A DNA stretch of 34,231 nt from a virus. The stretch covers positions 1-34,231 of IMG/VR virus record IMGVR_UViG_3300024999_000262; one strand, written 5' to 3'. Made by a program: the position numbers and the translations under genes. Shown one piece after another: positions 2,840 through 32,912 of the stretch. The notes below the pieces were generated by a model. The model did not search any database, was not told where the DNA came from, and worked only from the letters and a program-made list of their open reading frames with translations. The stretch's first letter is position 1. The number at the start of each line of letters is the position of its first letter.

Positions 2840-4513
2840 CTACAATGAAAGCTCCCATTTCTTCTTACCACAATCCCAAATCCTGTGGTAATCGTTATTC
2901 TTGGTGTTTTCCAGTTCTGTCAGAGCAGGGTCGAATGTTATGCCATGCTTTCTGGACATTCTCTTTAGTCTAAATCCACTCTTATGAAATACCCGCCCAT
3001 TACCTTTTCTACTGACATACTTATAGTCAGGCGGACAGTCTTTAACTAGCTTAAATCCAAGTTTTTCGTAGACCCCTCCAGTGAACCATCGGTTGTCTGA
3101 GTAGCTTGTAACCAACTTACACTCTGGAGTTGCTCTAATAAATGCCTTTAGTAGTTTCCCGGCCCCGCCCACTACCCTATTTTTAAATGCTAACCTCCTT
3201 AACTCCCAGTTACTTGGGTCAGACAAACCTCTATGAGAGGAAATCTTACTAAACGCCACTACTCCCATCAATTCTTTATTGTGGAATATGCCCCAGTATT
3301 TACAACCTGTAACATTACCCTGTAAGTGGAACTTATCAAGAAAGTATTGAGCTATTATGCTATTAACAGGTTCACACCTGCAAGTCCTGGCAAACACCTT
3401 TGTATCGTCCATCCCTAGTATGTGCGACAGCGTGTGTTTTATAACATACTGATCCTCGTAATCGGAAACGTGTATAAGTCTTATTCCTAGCCCAGAACAC
3501 ATGTCCTGCTTTTCTTTTAAGTGCCATTTAGCGTTAGTCTTATAGAACTCAGAGTGAAACAATGAACCGTTGTATTCTATTGCTATCTTTTTGCTTGGTA
3601 TAAATATGTCCAGTTCTTTCTTTCCCAGAGTCTTCCTATCTCTTCTTACTACTTCGAACACTTCTTCTAAGAAGTCGGCTAGATCATCCTCCCGCTTACT
3701 CAAATGAACTCCGCATTTCTGACATCCACAACCTTGTAAGTGCTTATCAGGTGTTTGTTTAAACACACCGTGTATCGGACATATTATCTTGACTGGCATA
3801 TCATAGTTTATGTAATTAGATAGGCTGTAGTTATATTTGTTGTTGTGTATTAAAGAACTACGTTCAGCAAAGGTTTTTTGACCCTCTACACTGGCCTTGT
3901 AAGAAGTGTACTCTTTAGTGCAGTCTGGACAGCCGGTGCCGTTTAGATGAACATTTGGTGTTAGAATAAACGGTCCGTGAATAGGGCATGTTATTTCCAC
4001 TTGATCAATTGCAGACACATACGAGACTTTGCCGTATGAGTACGCACCGCTGTGTATTTTGTCAGCCTTGAAAGCAAAATCTTCTTTGTTACTTGTATTC
4101 TTTACAGAAACTGTAGCGTCACCACACTTTGGACAACCACTTCCTTTCTTGTGATTCCATGTACTAGGGTAGAACTCCCCATGAGCAGGGCATATTACTA
4201 TAACTTTTTCATTGGCTGATATGTAATCAACTTTTGAATAGTCGTATTTATCTCCGTGAACCCTCTTGAATTCTCTTATGGCTATTTCTGTAGTCCACCT
4301 AGACCTCTCAGTGTTAACCTCTACAGCGCACTTGGGACAGCCGTGTCCTTTCTTATGTAGAAACGGCGATTGTTGGTATTCCCCGTGTGCACTGCATATT
4401 ATAGTTACTTTTTTGTTGGCTGACTCATACACTACTTTAGAGTAGTTGTATTTATCTTCGTGGATCTTCTTACTAATTGAAACAAACTCTTCAGTTGTAA
4501 GCCTCCTACTCAT
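2840..4513 (-). CDS. Free-standing homing endonuclease: four zinc-binding repeats, VSR-like nuclease core, GNAT-like C-terminus
   Basis: 557 residues in three parts. Residues about 1-270 are four copies of a 68-residue unit (KYNYSKVxY...CPxHGEF...GxGCPKC) with putative metal ligands C40/H43/C59/C62, C108/H111/C127/C130, C176/H179/C195/C198 and C245/H248/C264/C267. Residues about 275-370 hold the nuclease core: KKELDIFIP (D302), IAIEYNGSLFHSE (E313, H320), as in PD-(D/E)XK/VSR-like (EDxHD) homing enzymes. Residues about 375-557 resemble the GNAT-fold-like tail seen on many viral homing endonucleases (NWELRRLAF, SYSDNRWFTGG, final DYHRIWDCGKKKWE). It most likely cuts DNA near the intergenic site to spread itself. 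It sits backwards in the head operon, its ATG directly abutting the stop of the small zinc gene. The exact family name and target are not certain. Confidence 0.88.
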   Translation of the reverse strand: MSRRLTTEEFVSISKKIHEDKYNYSKVVYESANKKVTIICSAHGEYQQSPFLHKKGHGCPKCAVEVNTERSRWTTEIAIREFKRVHGDKYDYSKVDYISANEKVIVICPAHGEFYPSTWNHKKGSGCPKCGDATVSVKNTSNKEDFAFKADKIHSGAYSYGKVSYVSAIDQVEITCPIHGPFILTPNVHLNGTGCPDCTKEYTSYKASVEGQKTFAERSSLIHNNKYNYSLSNYINYDMPVKIICPIHGVFKQTPDKHLQGCGCQKCGVHLSKREDDLADFLEEVFEVVRRDRKTLGKKELDIFIPSKKIAIEYNGSLFHSEFYKTNAKWHLKEKQDMCSGLGIRLIHVSDYEDQYVIKHTLSHILGMDDTKVFARTCRCEPVNSIIAQYFLDKFHLQGNVTGCKYWGIFHNKELMGVVAFSKISSHRGLSDPSNWELRRLAFKNRVVGGAGKLLKAFIRATPECKLVTSYSDNRWFTGGVYEKLGFKLVKDCPPDYKYVSRKGNGRVFHKSGFRLKRMSRKHGITFDPALTELENTKNNDYHRIWDCGKKKWELSL

Positions 4514-22119: not shown

Positions 22120-22140
22120 CAGTCACTTCACCAGTGACTG
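22120..22140. terminator. Weak hairpin at the convergent junction
   Basis: CAGTCACT (22120-22127) pairs perfectly with AGTGACTG (22133-22140) across a 5-base loop. No T-tract follows on the + side and only a weak one on the - side, so termination is uncertain; the - strand stop codon lies inside the stem. Confidence 0.45.
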
Positions 22141-22512
22141 TATAGCGGGCCACATCCAATCTATGATCTTAACGGCAGCGACTATAGCTACAGTAGCCCA
22201 GACTATAGTTCGCTGCCAGTTAGCATTTTTCCAATCCTCAAGAGATTGTAACCTAGTATCTATTTTAGACCTATAATCAGCACAACTGATAGCGCAGTCT
22301 CTACTGTGCTGCTCTAGTTTGTTCAGGTCTTTCTCTACCGATTTTGTTCTTACAGTACTGGTGGTATTTATGAGATCCTCAGCGGCTTCGATCTTACTGT
22401 CAATATCTTCTTTTATATTTGCCTTAGCCTTATCCACTAACTGTATAAGTCTCTCTTCAACCTTGTCTATCCTAGAGTACACCCCCTGAACCTTCTCATC
22501 AATCTCGTTCAT
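22123..22512 (-). CDS. Coiled-coil protein with C-terminal membrane segment (holin-like)
   Basis: 129 residues. A long amphipathic coiled coil (about 5-90, full of Glu/Lys/Asp heptads) leads to one C-terminal hydrophobic segment (about 103-120, TIVWATVAIVAAVKIIDWM). The architecture is that of XhlA-type holin partners and other phage lysis or membrane proteins. Two Cys (CAISC) lie before the membrane segment. The endolysin is far away (27645), so assignment to lysis is an inference. Start ATG 22512 has a weak site (AAGGTAAG) 7 bases upstream and lies 5 bases after the receiver-like gene. Confidence 0.6.
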   Translation of the reverse strand: MNEIDEKVQGVYSRIDKVEERLIQLVDKAKANIKEDIDSKIEAAEDLINTTSTVRTKSVEKDLNKLEQHSRDCAISCADYRSKIDTRLQSLEDWKNANWQRTIVWATVAIVAAVKIIDWMWPAIQSLVK

Positions 22513-22517
22513 TCATC

Positions 22518-22943
22518 TTACCTTTTTCGGATGAGTTCTCTGAAATTTATTCTTTTGATTACGAGATCTAGCCACATCGGAAGGCTATGTTCTATTTCAT
22601 TGTTATTACTGGTATCAAGAGTGGCGTCAGCACCAGCAAGTATTGACTGACAAACAAAACTAACACCTGTGAATTTAGTTTTTACCAAGAATATTATATC
22701 AGGCCTAGTTTCCTTAGCCAATCTGCACAACATTATCCCTGTATTTTCAAAGTTGTCTAGCCTAAGTTCTGCTATTACTATATGTACATCTTTCTCTTGT
22801 CTGATTATTTCCAGCGCATCCTTTGACTTATCTACACAGAATACTGAGTTGATCCCAATGTTAGTTAGAGAGCAACATGTTTTTTGAAGTTCAATAGCAT
22901 CCGAGTCAACCACAAGTACTCTAAGATCAGATATTTTACACAT
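22518..22943 (-). CDS. Degenerate response-regulator receiver (CheY-like) protein
   Basis: 141 residues from ATG 22943. It shows the receiver order: LRVLVVDSD (D13, D15), a helix, HIVIAELRLDN where the phosphoacceptor Asp is expected but E59 is found, helix GIMLCRLAKETRPD, then strand IIFLVKT, helix, strand ATLDT. The conserved Lys after the fifth strand is missing. This makes it a pseudo-receiver, possibly locked by the Glu, with no output domain. Phages rarely carry receivers. The longer TTG start (23021) would add 26 residues coded inside a hairpin, so I prefer ATG, although no good ribosome site precedes it. Its role could be to interfere with host signalling; that is speculation. Confidence 0.7.
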   Translation of the reverse strand: MCKISDLRVLVVDSDAIELQKTCCSLTNIGINSVFCVDKSKDALEIIRQEKDVHIVIAELRLDNFENTGIMLCRLAKETRPDIIFLVKTKFTGVSFVCQSILAGADATLDTSNNNEIEHSLPMWLDLVIKRINFRELIRKR

Positions 22944-22951
22944 AGAAAAAT

Positions 22952-23018
22952 AATGGCCTGTTTGATTTGATGTGAAGTTGTTGTTTACAGCAACTTTACA
23001 TCCTCCAAACAGGCCATT
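22952..23018 (-). terminator. 67-nt long hairpin with T-run before the receiver-like gene
   Basis: Outer stem 13 bp (22952-22964 with 23006-23018), inner stem about 15 bp (GATGTGAAGTTG paired with CAACTTTACATC, one G-U, plus three closing pairs), small internal loop and 4-base apical loop. On the minus strand it is followed by ATTATTTTTCT, so it reads as an intrinsic terminator or attenuator, only 8 bases before the ATG of the next gene. Confidence 0.6.
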
Positions 23019-23044
23019 CAAGACATTTTCGATCTATCCAGAAA

Positions 23045-23638
23045 TTAGAACCCTAGCTTTCCATTATTGAGTAACCCAGGCAGCATCAAGCTATTGAAAT
23101 TATAGACACTTGGCCCAACTGCCCTGTATTTATTCCAGACTGTATGGCCAAATTTGTCTAAAGCAAGTTTAGTCGAATTCGCTATAATGGTTGCCCCCGT
23201 TGCCTCGATCACAATATCCCTCAGTAGTCCATCAAAGAATTCCTTGCCGTAGCCCACAAACACAGGCATTAATTCCCCAAACTTGTCAGGGAACTTCTCA
23301 TAGAGAGACATAGATGATTCATTAAAGACTACTCCTGGTATCCTCTCAGTCAGTAAGTACCCATACTGGTATCCAAAATCGTGGGGGATAGCTCCGTAAG
23401 CTAGTGGACCGCTGGGGGAGAAGCCTGGCACAGCCCACAGAAGTCTTGGTACAGAGGCTAGGTCAGTTATAAAGTCTTTAGGCTGTACTAAATTATACTT
23501 GTAAGAGTACCCAATTCTATAGTCTTTAGTAAGCTGAAGATTAGGGGGATTATCTTTTACAGCTTTGAACTTCTCCCAAAAGGATATGCCCTTATAGTTA
23601 ACTCTAACCAGCTTAAACTCAGGATCTGGTATAATCAA
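23045..23638 (-). CDS. DUF1353-like phage protein
   Basis: 197 residues, TTG start supported by AGGAGAAG 5-10 bases upstream and by a TTGA overlap with the preceding mini-ORF. The central motif DFITDLASVPR (residues 55-65) and IPHDFGYQYGYL (84-95, with H86/D87) are the signature of DUF1353, a group of proteins widespread in siphovirus and prophage genomes, often near lysis or tail genes; function is not settled, a peptidase-like or cell wall role has been considered. It ends about 25 bases before the large hairpin. Confidence 0.75.
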   Translation of the reverse strand: MIIPDPEFKLVRVNYKGISFWEKFKAVKDNPPNLQLTKDYRIGYSYKYNLVQPKDFITDLASVPRLLWAVPGFSPSGPLAYGAIPHDFGYQYGYLLTERIPGVVFNESSMSLYEKFPDKFGELMPVFVGYGKEFFDGLLRDIVIEATGATIIANSTKLALDKFGHTVWNKYRAVGPSVYNFNSLMLPGLLNNGKLGF

Positions 23639-23779: not shown

Positions 23780-24307
23780 TCAGTATTGGAAGGTTATTCT
23801 CCATGGCCTTACACCATTTTTAACCCTCTTATACTTAACAATCATTGTATCTATGTCGCTAATGTCACAGTCAAGAGAATACTTATCACAAACAGCCTTC
23901 CACCTTAACAGGTAAGATGGTGCGTACCTCAGATTAGGCGGCAGCCAGTCACTATAAATTTTATCACTCTTCGAAGCGTTTACTGACTCTTGGACAAGTA
24001 CTAAGTTCAGCGGGTCGTTAGCGAACTCCTCTCTTCTCTCATCAGTCCACTTATCAGCCCCTAAATCACAAGCAGCCTGTAACGGCACTACATGATCCAA
24101 CTCAGCCTTAGTAATACTGGCTAATTCTCCAGTATAAGGACAAATAAACTTATCGCCCAGAATAACTTCAGCCTTAACAAACTCCTCCCTAGTATCAAGA
24201 CCATCTTTATCTAAGTCAACCCAGTGATTGAAGCTACGCCTGTTGCATTCTGCCGGGTATGCGTTGCTTGCTAATAGGAGAACAAGCAGGGCACTATAAA
24301 CTCTCAT
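23780..24307 (-). CDS. Secreted HNH nuclease
   Basis: 175 residues. Signal peptide: basic MR, hydrophobic core YSALLVLLLASNA, cleavage probably after A19 (YPA). The mature part has WVDLDKDGLDTRE, CPYTG (56-60), AELDHVVPL with D71-H72, FANDPLNLV (N101) and NASKSD (N110-D115), all as in the DUF1524/GmrSD-type HNH nucleases exported by bacteria and phages. Export implies action in the periplasm or outside, for example destroying extracellular DNA or DNA of competing phages during entry. ATG follows GAGGAG; the gene overlaps the previous small gene by 14 bases. The family match is strong; the target is inferred. Confidence 0.85.
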   Translation of the reverse strand: MRVYSALLVLLLASNAYPAECNRRSFNHWVDLDKDGLDTREEFVKAEVILGDKFICPYTGELASITKAELDHVVPLQAACDLGADKWTDERREEFANDPLNLVLVQESVNASKSDKIYSDWLPPNLRYAPSYLLRWKAVCDKYSLDCDISDIDTMIVKYKRVKNGVRPWRITFQY

Positions 24308-24694: not shown

Positions 24695-25384
24695 TTACCA
24701 CTTAATAGTGCAACTGTTGAACTGGGTGTTAAACTCACCTATGACAACAAGTTTGCCGGTGTTCTCTGATATCGGTTTCCAGGTGAGGCCGTTCTTACCT
24801 TCCTGTCTTTTGGACCCATCAGCCACCCTCATCTTCAGGACACCGTCTATCCATACCTCGATATTTTTTCCGTAATGAGCCCCTACATACGGAAACCTTG
24901 CATTGCCTCTACCTTCATTAGCATATCCGTCAGGCTTGGAAGTTGCACTGTTACCTCCTGAGGGTGTTGTGGGTTCTGCTGATGAACTTTGTTCAGCTAC
25001 ATAGATCACTCCACCACAGACAATCGAGAACTTCAGGGGCCGGGTGTATTGATCCCCAGTCTTTGAGAGCTTGAATACGGGGTGTCCTTGATACGCATTG
25101 CCCTTAACTGCTACTTCTCCATTTAAAGCTACGCTGGATACCTCGCGATCTGATAGAGAGGGGAAATAAACAACTGCGCCGTCTCCGTTACCCTCATCTG
25201 ACTCCCTCTCAAATACTATTTTATGAGGAAATAGTACGGTAACAGGAGTTACAGGAGTTACAGGAGTTACAGGAGTTACAGGAGTTACAGGAGTTACAGG
25301 CTTGTTCGTATCTATTAGGTCGTTCCCACACCTAGGGCATACGGTACTAATACCCAATAGCTTGGCTATAGCTTTTAAGTCCAT
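24695..25384 (-). CDS. Zinc-finger/(Pro-Val-Thr)n linker protein with beta-rich C-terminus
   Basis: 229 residues. The N-terminus has a short helix and TVCPRCGNDL (a CxxC pair). Seven Pro-Val-Thr units coded by a 9-bp tandem repeat follow as a stiff linker (about 29-49). The C-terminal part is beta-rich with HYGKNIEVWIDGVLKM and TGKLVVIGEFNTQFNS, resembling a carbohydrate- or surface-binding domain. Start overlaps the lipoprotein stop (TAATG). It lies next to a lipoprotein in an envelope-oriented cassette, so binding at the cell surface or envelope is plausible. No family is recognised. Confidence 0.65.
   Translation of the reverse strand: MDLKAIAKLLGISTVCPRCGNDLIDTNKPVTPVTPVTPVTPVTPVTPVTVLFPHKIVFERESDEGNGDGAVVYFPSLSDREVSSVALNGEVAVKGNAYQGHPVFKLSKTGDQYTRPLKFSIVCGGVIYVAEQSSSAEPTTPSGGNSATSKPDGYANEGRGNARFPYVGAHYGKNIEVWIDGVLKMRVADGSKRQEGKNGLTWKPISENTGKLVVIGEFNTQFNSCTIKW
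25242..25300. repeat. 9-bp tandem repeat (ACAGGAGTT x 6.5)
   Basis: Six perfect copies of ACAGGAGTT plus five bases, in frame with the gene on the minus strand, encoding Pro-Val-Thr units. Perfect identity of copies shows very recent slippage expansion, and copy number probably varies between phage isolates. Confidence 0.95.
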
Positions 25385-25692
25385 TACTCTACCTCTTGAA
25401 TGTCAGCTTGTTTCTTGACTAATGGAATAATTACTTCACTACCAGCGTTTACTGCCTCCAGAACCTTAAGTGCGTTAGCATCAATCCAACTTTTAGCAAG
25501 CTTTACGGCTTCCCCTAGATCATTAGCTGACTTCTGATCTACACCAGTAGTGTTAGTAGCACCCGAGGCATCAATATGCTGATCGCCACCTGAGTATATC
25601 GAGATATTGGTTTCTCTGTAATTAACTCCACCACACCCAGACACAGATATTAAAGCAATACCAGCTAGAGTAATCAAACAAATCTTTTTCAA
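25384..25692 (-). CDS. Lipoprotein
   Basis: 102 residues. Signal peptide MKKICLITLAGIALISVSGC with a lipobox (VSG-C20), so the mature protein should be lipid-anchored at Cys20. The mature part is short, with Gly/Ser-rich stretches and a helix (DLGEAVKLAKSWIDANALKVLEAV). Lipoproteins in this phage position may be outer spanins or superinfection-exclusion proteins; unlike typical outer spanins it is not Pro-rich. Coupled to the kinase gene by ATGA and to the next gene by TAATG. Confidence 0.78.
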   Translation of the reverse strand: MKKICLITLAGIALISVSGCGGVNYRETNISIYSGGDQHIDASGATNTTGVDQKSANDLGEAVKLAKSWIDANALKVLEAVNAGSEVIIPLVKKQADIQEVE

Positions 25693-27644: not shown

Positions 27645-28226
27645 TTATAGTTTCTCTGCTCTGTCAAGCCAACCTATGTACTTCTCCTTAGCAGGGTTGG
27701 CCTCCATTTTCTCGATGATACATTTGTTTGTGTAGGCCCTATAGAGAGCCATAACCCTACTGTTAGGGTTACACCTCAAAGCAGACTTCAAAGCCCCTAG
27801 TGTCTTTGTACCGATACTCTTATCAATCGCTATGTCAAAATACTCCTTCTGGTTTCTGTTTAGGAGGTTGACTGTTCGTTGTAGCCACTCTATCGCTCTA
27901 CCCTCCCCATAGAGGGTAATGGTGTTGAACATCTTGTCGGCCAAGGCTGGGAAGACTTCGTTTACCTTATCAAGTCCAGGCTCAATCCACCTTGTTCTTT
28001 TGAAGTGGGACTTGACCATCTCCAAGAGGATTCTATTATTCCTGATGTTCTCGGGGAAGCTCTTCTCCAACTTAGCCTTGTCTACAGTAACCCAACCTAC
28101 CCAGTCTTTGTTATGGACTCTTGATATACCCGAGTAAGTCTCATCACCTGGATCATCGGGGTCGTTAGTCCATACTCCTAAACCTTCATCCTTCATTGTT
28201 ACTTCATACGCTTTGTCAAACCCCAT
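27645..28226 (-). CDS. Endolysin, GH108-type N-acetylmuramidase
   Basis: 193 residues. The N-terminus has MKDEGLGVWTNDPDDPGDETYSGIS, the GH108 signature with catalytic Glu at 14 (normally EGG; here EGL). The C-terminal region (about 95-193, ADKMFNTITLYG, EWLQRTVNLLN, IDKSIGTKTLGAL) matches the peptidoglycan-binding domain paired with GH108. There is no signal peptide, so a holin or other membrane protein is needed for release. Unusually it lies inside the replication operon, between ligase and SbcC, away from the candidate holin. The ribosome site is weak (AGGTG), suggesting coupling to the SbcC gene 6 bases upstream. Confidence 0.85.
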   Translation of the reverse strand: MGFDKAYEVTMKDEGLGVWTNDPDDPGDETYSGISRVHNKDWVGWVTVDKAKLEKSFPENIRNNRILLEMVKSHFKRTRWIEPGLDKVNEVFPALADKMFNTITLYGEGRAIEWLQRTVNLLNRNQKEYFDIAIDKSIGTKTLGALKSALRCNPNSRVMALYRAYTNKCIIEKMEANPAKEKYIGWLDRAEKL

Positions 28227-31657: not shown

Positions 31658-32092
31658 TTATTTAGGAACATCGCCAAATATAACTTTAAGAACCTGAGAT
31701 AAGTCAGTAGGATTCATTATCTCAATACCTTTTTCTGGAACGCGCCAACTACTAGCTTTTTCTAACGCTGTTACTGGGACCACGAACAGCCTATCCAAAA
31801 TGTAGAAGTGGACAAGTACAAATCCCGGCACTCCAGCACTCGACCATCTAATCATATCGCCATACTGATCGAACATGCTGAGTCGTAGTGTTGTATTACT
31901 TGTTGTCTTGCATTCAAGGTGAGCAGTAAACTTACCAGCCCACGATAATAGGTAGTCGCTAGGCTGTGGCGGTGCCCCCTTCCTCACACTGTAGCTATCA
32001 AACAATCTTCTCCAGTGAAATTCAGGTTGCTTTGTGGTTCTAAGGTACTTGTCTACAGCTACCTCCAAATATTTACCGTCGTTCTTGGACAT
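31658..32092 (-). CDS. RecU-like Holliday-junction resolvase / PD-(D/E)XK nuclease
   Basis: 144 residues with AGGAGAGGAAGG before ATG 32092. The motif pattern E10, PPQPSDYLLS (D46), AHLECKTT (E60, K62) and the following LRLSMFDQY is that of the RecU-like PD-(D/E)XK resolvases. Position next to SbcC/D and polymerase supports a junction-resolving role during replication and packaging. It overlaps the HNH endonuclease gene by 20 bases. Confidence 0.72.
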   Translation of the reverse strand: MSKNDGKYLEVAVDKYLRTTKQPEFHWRRLFDSYSVRKGAPPQPSDYLLSWAGKFTAHLECKTTSNTTLRLSMFDQYGDMIRWSSAGVPGFVLVHFYILDRLFVVPVTALEKASSWRVPEKGIEIMNPTDLSQVLKVIFGDVPK

Positions 32093-32912
32093 TAGCCTTC
32101 CTCTCCTCCCTTATTCTCTTAAGTTCTTCTTTACCTCTCCTCAAACACTCTTCCACATCAAGGCTTTGTTCGGCTAATTCCCTGTCAAAGTCTTTATCAG
32201 GAAAATTTAGCGAGTGAGGTATCTTACATTTAACTATGAACTCATCTCTAGCTCTAGCTGCTTCTTCAGGTGTTTTGTACTCGTAGCCTAGCCGGAAGTT
32301 GGTAGACTCAAATATCACTATTGCCTTGTATCTGCCGGTGGGTAGCTTTGATATGCCTCTGAATCCAGTTGTATTCAAGGAGTTTATTGTTCGCCTATTT
32401 CTAAGATTACGTTGTATGGATATAAACCTACAGTTGCTTGGTTCGTAATTTCCATCATTGTCCTTCCTGTCCAGTTGAAGACCTTCCTTCCACCCGTTTG
32501 AAATGCACCAACCCAAAAATTTACCAAAATCGTTTACCCACTCCTCGAACACTGAAATCCCTCTGCTTCCATAGTTTTTGTAGTATTTATTCTTGGGGTT
32601 TAGACACCTCTGTTTCATAGCGACCCATATAGGGTACAGTTTATGACTAACATCATAATCTTTTTTAGACTTCTGCCCCGCGCAAGTCCTACATGCTTTA
32701 GTTTTCCCTGCTCTGAGGTTGCTTTTTGTCTGGACAGCCTCTACCCCACACTTGCATCTACATACCCACATTGATTCCCACCACCCCGAATTATTCCATT
32801 TCTTAGTTTCTCCAATAACCTCCCAGTCACCAAACTTTAGTCCTATGTCGCCTTCAGCACCTCTCGTTATTTCTACGCCACTCTCTACAACAAAAGCTTT
32901 TTCAGTACCCAT
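32073..32912 (-). CDS. HNH-AP2 homing endonuclease
   Basis: 279 residues. N-terminal zinc-binding part (C51, C53, C55, C74, C77), then the phage HNH segment HKLYPIWVAMKQRC...YYKNYGSRGISV...EEWVNDFGKFLGW..., QLDRKDNDGNYEPSNCRF (about 88-165), then an AP2-like DNA-binding domain (TTGFRGISKLPTGRYKAIVI, about 181-230). This order (HNH followed by AP2) is usual in free-standing phage homing endonucleases. It lies directly downstream of the polymerase gene, probably inserted to protect its target. Ribosome site AAAGGAG in a hairpin loop; start codon in the hairpin arm. C-terminal Arg/Glu-rich helix. Confidence 0.9.
   Translation of the reverse strand: MGTEKAFVVESGVEITRGAEGDIGLKFGDWEVIGETKKWNNSGWWESMWVCRCKCGVEAVQTKSNLRAGKTKACRTCAGQKSKKDYDVSHKLYPIWVAMKQRCLNPKNKYYKNYGSRGISVFEEWVNDFGKFLGWCISNGWKEGLQLDRKDNDGNYEPSNCRFISIQRNLRNRRTINSLNTTGFRGISKLPTGRYKAIVIFESTNFRLGYEYKTPEEAARARDEFIVKCKIPHSLNFPDKDFDRELAEQSLDVEECLRRGKEELKRIREERKANVQERR

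Follow-up and report, generated by a model that had tools for sequence, protein, structure and literature searches.

The receiver gene and its neighbourhood

The window, i.e., the whole analysed stretch of 34,231 nucleotides (IMG/VR record IMGVR_UViG_3300024999_000262, positions 1 to 34,231), carries on its minus strand a gene for a small pseudo-receiver, accompanied by a gene for a coiled-coil-like membrane protein and preceded by a strong hairpin (Table 1). The receiver reading frame starts with ATG at 22943 and stops at 22518; its strand was absent from the initial annotation. An alternative TTG start at 23021, with the frame reading through the hairpin, was rejected, as translation from the ATG at 22943 yields an N-terminus normal for a receiver.

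Table 1. Features of the receiver locus and its gene cluster in the window.
Feature	Position	Strand	Evidence
Single-domain pseudo-receiver, 141 aa	22518..22943	-	Pfam, phmmer, profile, MAFFT, AlphaFold model
129-aa coiled-coil-like, single-TM protein, proposed membrane partner	22123..22512	-	sequence, TM call
Inverted repeat, perfect 13-bp, long terminator-like hairpin, then T-rich tract	22952..23018	-	folding
DUF1353 protein, upstream neighbour of the receiver	23045..23638	-	PF07087, E 1e-6
Small lipoprotein, signal peptide with lipobox-like SGCG	25384..25692	-	sequence; no family match
Glycosyl hydrolase 108 endolysin, about 5 kb upstream in the receiver's gene cluster	27645..28226	-	family scans

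The capsid protein of the window is 27–30% identical to capsids of ~83-kb Vibrio and Pseudomonas phages, and the virus probably infects a gammaproteobacterium. The minus-strand cluster around the receiver encodes a DUF1353 protein, a secreted HNH protein, a lipoprotein (spanin-like by size only), a dNMP kinase, a ligase, and a GH108 endolysin. The HNH protein (23780–24307) combines a match to the GmrSD C-terminal domain with a signal peptide and is possibly an exported nuclease, and the product of 24695–25384 has a short zinc-ribbon-like start followed by a PVT tandem repeat. Elsewhere in the window, a minus-strand gene (2840–4513; 557 aa) in which zinc-binding CPxHG motifs recur lies amid plus-strand capsid/head genes and looks like a homing endonuclease insertion; a 279-aa AP2/HNH homing endonuclease-like protein (32073–32912) adjoins the DNA polymerase gene.

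The gene downstream of the receiver begins 5 bp past the receiver stop and has a Shine–Dalgarno-like AAAGG. Its product consists of a long, charged, coiled-coil-like N-terminal part and one C-terminal transmembrane (TM) segment, residues 102–120; it matched no Pfam family above the cut-off and gave no tblastn match in phages.

The hairpin that separates the receiver from the DUF1353 gene (-37 kcal/mol, z -6.8) is far stabler than shuffled sequences, and the T-rich tract after it stops 8 bp ahead of the receiver start. Its Rfam identities (snoRNA, miRNA) were discounted, all being far under the curated cut-offs. The receiver ATG lacks the Shine–Dalgarno sequence that nearly all neighbouring genes checked possess, and in G+C content the receiver gene ranks last among the 15 genes of the window that were compared (35.9%, GC3 31%). 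These features are consistent with a unit that has been inserted or is under separate regulation. They would also fit a host receiver recently acquired by the phage and now decaying, with little or no function, as would the lack of close homologues among 50,697 phage records and in IMG/VR and GTDB contigs. However, the gene has kept an intact reading frame, its predicted fold (see below) is complete at high confidence, the downstream gene is tightly spaced, and the whole hydrophobic core is retained, which is unexpected of a decaying gene; we consider decay quite unlikely.

Searches for relatives of the locus with the DUF1353 and endolysin neighbours as anchors were empty. The capsid alignment used as an anchor yielded 35 related viral contigs; no receivers were found in them, but the family search missed the window's own receiver too, so this absence is uninformative.

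Fold and active site of the window receiver

The protein matches PF00072 (Response_reg) with E 9.2e-6 and 26.2 bits, just under the curated cut-off of 30.2. Our own receiver profile gave E 7e-7 in a one-sequence search, and phmmer matched the protein to the receivers of DrrB from Thermotoga (3nns, E 1.4e-5; 1p2f, E 4.8e-5). Judging by these sequence matches, its identity as a receiver exceeds chance.

According to AlphaFold2 run without an alignment, the protein already matches receivers in a structure search, albeit at low confidence (pLDDT 61). With a 39-sequence alignment, the model reached pLDDT 90.2 and pTM 0.85 and contained a complete (beta/alpha)5 fold, with strands 8–12, 33–37, 55–59, 84–89, 107–110 and helices 16–28, 40–49, 69–79, 94–102, 116–140, all ten elements being in order. 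This alignment, which included 38 receivers from the fetched loci, covered residues 1–105 only; it was trimmed before strand 5 so as not to force the C-terminal register. Since the alignment itself was made of receivers, independent support for the fold comes from the sequence searches and the alignment-free model. A PDB search with the model gave 479 matches at E<=1e-3; all 50 of those listed were response-regulator or CheY-type receiver entries, among them the D55E mutant of HupR. Taking all this into account, a receiver fold is close to certain. The initial annotation had recognized a CheY-type plan, citing the motifs VVDSD (residues 11–15) and VIAELRLDN (residues 56–64), and had noted the absence of an output domain. 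Our data agree with it in all these points: both motifs are present, the predicted structure is a (beta/alpha)5, and the protein ends after the long helix 5.

The positions D13, S14, E59, and T89 of the active site were agreed upon by three alignments, namely, phmmer against DrrB, hmmsearch with a profile built from 44 other receivers, and MAFFT. Thus, the two metal-binding positions (DD) are occupied by D13 and S14, the latter in place of the second Asp; the phosphoacceptor position (D), where strand 3 of the model ends, by E59; the T position by T89; and T+1, Ala or Gly in most receivers, by the bulky K90. The position of the conserved Lys (K) corresponds to T111 in the ungapped phmmer alignment with DrrB, strand 5 of the model occupying residues 107–110. 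Lys130, aligned with the conserved Lys in one MAFFT alignment across a 19-residue gap, was rejected, as the model puts it inside helix 5. In addition, the Pro at D+4 is replaced by Asp63, followed by a two-residue insertion, and the aromatic residue at K-3, involved in Y–T coupling, by Thr108.

Hence the initial claims that Glu stands at the phosphoacceptor site and that the conserved Lys is lost both hold, E59 being placed at this site by all three alignments. Since three out of five residues of the DD, D, T, K catalytic set are replaced, the protein is a pseudo-receiver by the published definition (PMC12632262), and canonical receiver chemistry has very probably been lost. Pseudo-receivers account for about 6% of bacterial receivers, and Glu is the commonest substitute for Asp in them (PMC12632262); thus, Glu at the phosphoacceptor position alone is ordinary. 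Compared to these aspartate-less bacterial members of PF00072, the window protein differs in being phage-encoded and single-domain, with three out of five residues replaced and Lys at T+1.

The initial annotation also suggested that the receiver could act as a phospho-mimic, that is, E59 would imitate phospho-Asp and lock the active conformation, so that a partner in the host would be kept either active or blocked. Many response regulators are indeed partly activated by Glu (PMC12632262), and Lys90 could conceivably substitute for the absent Lys. However, the mimicking Glu perhaps contacts the conserved Thr and Lys (PMC12632262), and in the window receiver Thr89 is present while Lys is not, which weakens this reading, as do S14 in place of the second acidic residue, K90 at T+1, and Thr108 at K-3. 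Moreover, Glu-dependent activity has been disproved in some pseudo-receivers (PMC12632262). We regard phospho-mimicry as unlikely.

Receivers paired with coiled-coil proteins in Alteromonas phages

E. coli CheY served as the first query against the phage collection, and the receivers it retrieved served as further queries, genomic context being disregarded. Many records were set aside as bacterial-looking DNA filed as phage, among them the receiver records of Listeria, Salmonella, and Acinetobacter MD-2021a; full-length DNA-binding regulators encoded in phages (MW462191, Bhz63) were excluded as a different kind of protein. An ORF of Pseudomonas phage Komp_PAO1_1 was not used, as the match lies on the strand opposite to the annotated gene. 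Single-domain receivers were observed in the Foturvirus phages R8W and H4/4, siphovirus R9Y1-3, phages PT11-V19, XX1924, and PB15, and myovirus PT11-V22. The phage single-domain receivers are 125–153 aa long, and none has a DNA-binding or other output domain.

In at least four phage groups other than that of the window, all infecting Alteromonas and unrelated to each other, the receiver adjoins a small coiled-coil protein, mostly with a single TM segment (the loci include L051, L052, L048, L044, and L054). The window pair resembles this arrangement, a small single receiver beside a coiled-coil protein, as seen for R8W gp48, H4/4 gp44, R9Y1 gp12, V22 gp30, PT11-V19 gp10, and the receivers of XX1924 and PB15. 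One clear TM segment is present in the partner in all Alteromonas phages compared except PT11-V22, whose partner has a hydrophobic segment that falls short of the TM threshold. The two genes overlap by 4–11 bp in R8W, R9Y1, PT11-V19, and XX1924, and are separated by 2–17 bp in PT11-V22, PB15, and the window. The partner is kept in R9Y1-like viral contigs from IMG/VR; a scan of IMG/VR found no XX1924-like receivers.

The window differs from the Alteromonas phages in several respects. Its gene order (receiver, then membrane protein) is the reverse of theirs, its receiver is only about 16–22% identical to their receivers, no closer than to bacterial ones, and it has E59 at the phosphoacceptor position, which is mostly intact in the Alteromonas phages. 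The exception is PT11-V19, whose receiver is degenerate, lacking both Asp and Lys; here the single-TM and receiver genes (L143:7936-8659) are the only minus-strand genes within a plus-strand block.

Generally, the Alteromonas phage pairs sit in or near lysis genes. For example, the receiver is immediately followed by a GH108 lysozyme in R9Y1 and is followed by an M15 peptidase in PB15, while in R8W and H4/4 the lysis context of the pair includes an annotated class II holin. In XX1924, a GTA 3-TM holin and DUF5675 are encoded nearby, and the partner itself is an XhlA-like "hemolysin" (phrog_937, E 1e-12). The window partner has the same layout of a coiled coil and a C-terminal TM segment as this XhlA-type protein; the two share a weak match to PHROG 2990, but the window partner, in contrast to that of XX1924, has no significant family match. 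By a simple size-and-TM criterion, the probabilities of chance adjacency in PB15, R9Y1, PT11-V19, and the window multiply to about 1.4e-5, an estimate to be read with the caveats that the TM criterion was partly set after examples had been seen and that small membrane genes cluster near lysis genes.

Some of these genes have been described before. R8W gp48 was named PhoB, and V22 gp30 was named a signalling auxiliary gene (PMC8228385, PMC7289586). In line with this published annotation, the receivers could be regulators of transcription or metabolism encoded by auxiliary metabolic genes. Against this stands the absence of any output domain from all these proteins, which makes DNA binding of the PhoB type unlikely; we consider such a role very improbable. 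V22 and A5, although from different families, have in common a CheY-like gene and an adjoining gene of unknown function (gp29/gp30 and gp10/gp11), and a CheY-like gene with neighbours of unknown function, common to V22, A5, and P24, has been assigned to the host-recognition module (PMC10579305). In the open-licence literature, we found no paper that connects these receivers with lysis or with a membrane partner and none describing a phage pseudo-receiver, and the survey of pseudo-receivers mentions no phage members (PMC12632262). Within this literature, the pairing of a receiver with a coiled-coil membrane protein is new, phage receivers so far having been filed as auxiliary metabolic genes.

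Another divergent receiver fold in phages is the cRec domain of jumbo phages (PMC7824862). In cRec, unlike in the window receiver, where Asp is replaced, the catalytic aspartates are preserved, and the domain is associated with NAD/ADP-ribose enzymes (PMC7824862); Pfam and PHROG scans of the genes near the window receiver yielded no NAD enzyme.

Possible role of the pair

As a pseudo-receiver, the window protein most likely serves as a phosphorylation-independent binding module, and several partners can be considered. A host partner is possible. In particular, the protein could be a decoy or competitor that attaches to a two-component protein of the host (a histidine kinase, a phosphotransfer protein, or a response regulator), thereby blocking or biasing it, the membrane neighbour being uninvolved. 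Competitor roles by binding have been proposed for pseudo-receivers (PMC12632262), and in P. aeruginosa several kinases of the host are bound by PIT4, a phage protein (PMC10714779), although PIT4 does not seem to be described as a receiver. The fold is intact in the model, so binding surfaces may remain. However, a role directed at the host only would not lead one to expect the receiver gene to be closely linked, time and again, to a phage gene of one particular kind, and we find the decoy explanation doubtful.

Genomic context favours, in the first place, a partner encoded by the phage, and the adjoining coiled-coil membrane protein would be the likeliest candidate. The receiver might dock on the cytosolic coiled coil of this protein, just as receivers bind the helical stalk of a histidine kinase, and the docking might regulate how the membrane step of lysis is assembled or when it occurs. 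In phages with intact receivers, the same pair would then represent a phosphorylation-sensitive version. We rate the chances of a partnership between the two window proteins as about even, and a role of the receiver in lysis as somewhat less probable than that. The complete scheme, a phosphorylation-independent receiver that binds the adjoining membrane coiled coil and thereby controls a membrane step of lysis, is our tentatively preferred explanation, its probability falling short of even.

Three observations count against this scheme, namely, the gene order in the window, reversed relative to the Alteromonas phages, the endolysin gene lying about 5 kb away, and the window receiver being no more similar to the phage receivers than to bacterial ones. 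Besides, adjacency is not fully independent of location, since lysis regions are in any case rich in small membrane proteins, and conservation of the window pair cannot be shown, as neither the receiver nor the partner has a homologue among the searched records.

The pair recurs in the vicinity of lysis genes in several marine phages unrelated to each other, and this suggests a phage switch that has been little studied. More speculatively, phages may carry a two-gene lysis-control device composed of a receiver and a membrane-anchored coiled coil resembling the histidine kinase stalk, some versions sensing the phosphorylation state of the host and others, as in the window and PT11-V19, being phosphorylation-independent; we see this generalization as possible, though rather unlikely in its full form.

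The mode of action of pseudo-receivers outside plants is an open question (PMC12632262). Some of the culturable Alteromonas phages with the pair have an intact receiver, and one has a degenerate receiver; hence the proposed interaction is directly testable. If the receiver and the coiled-coil membrane protein do form a unit, the timing of phage lysis would be linked to two-component signalling.
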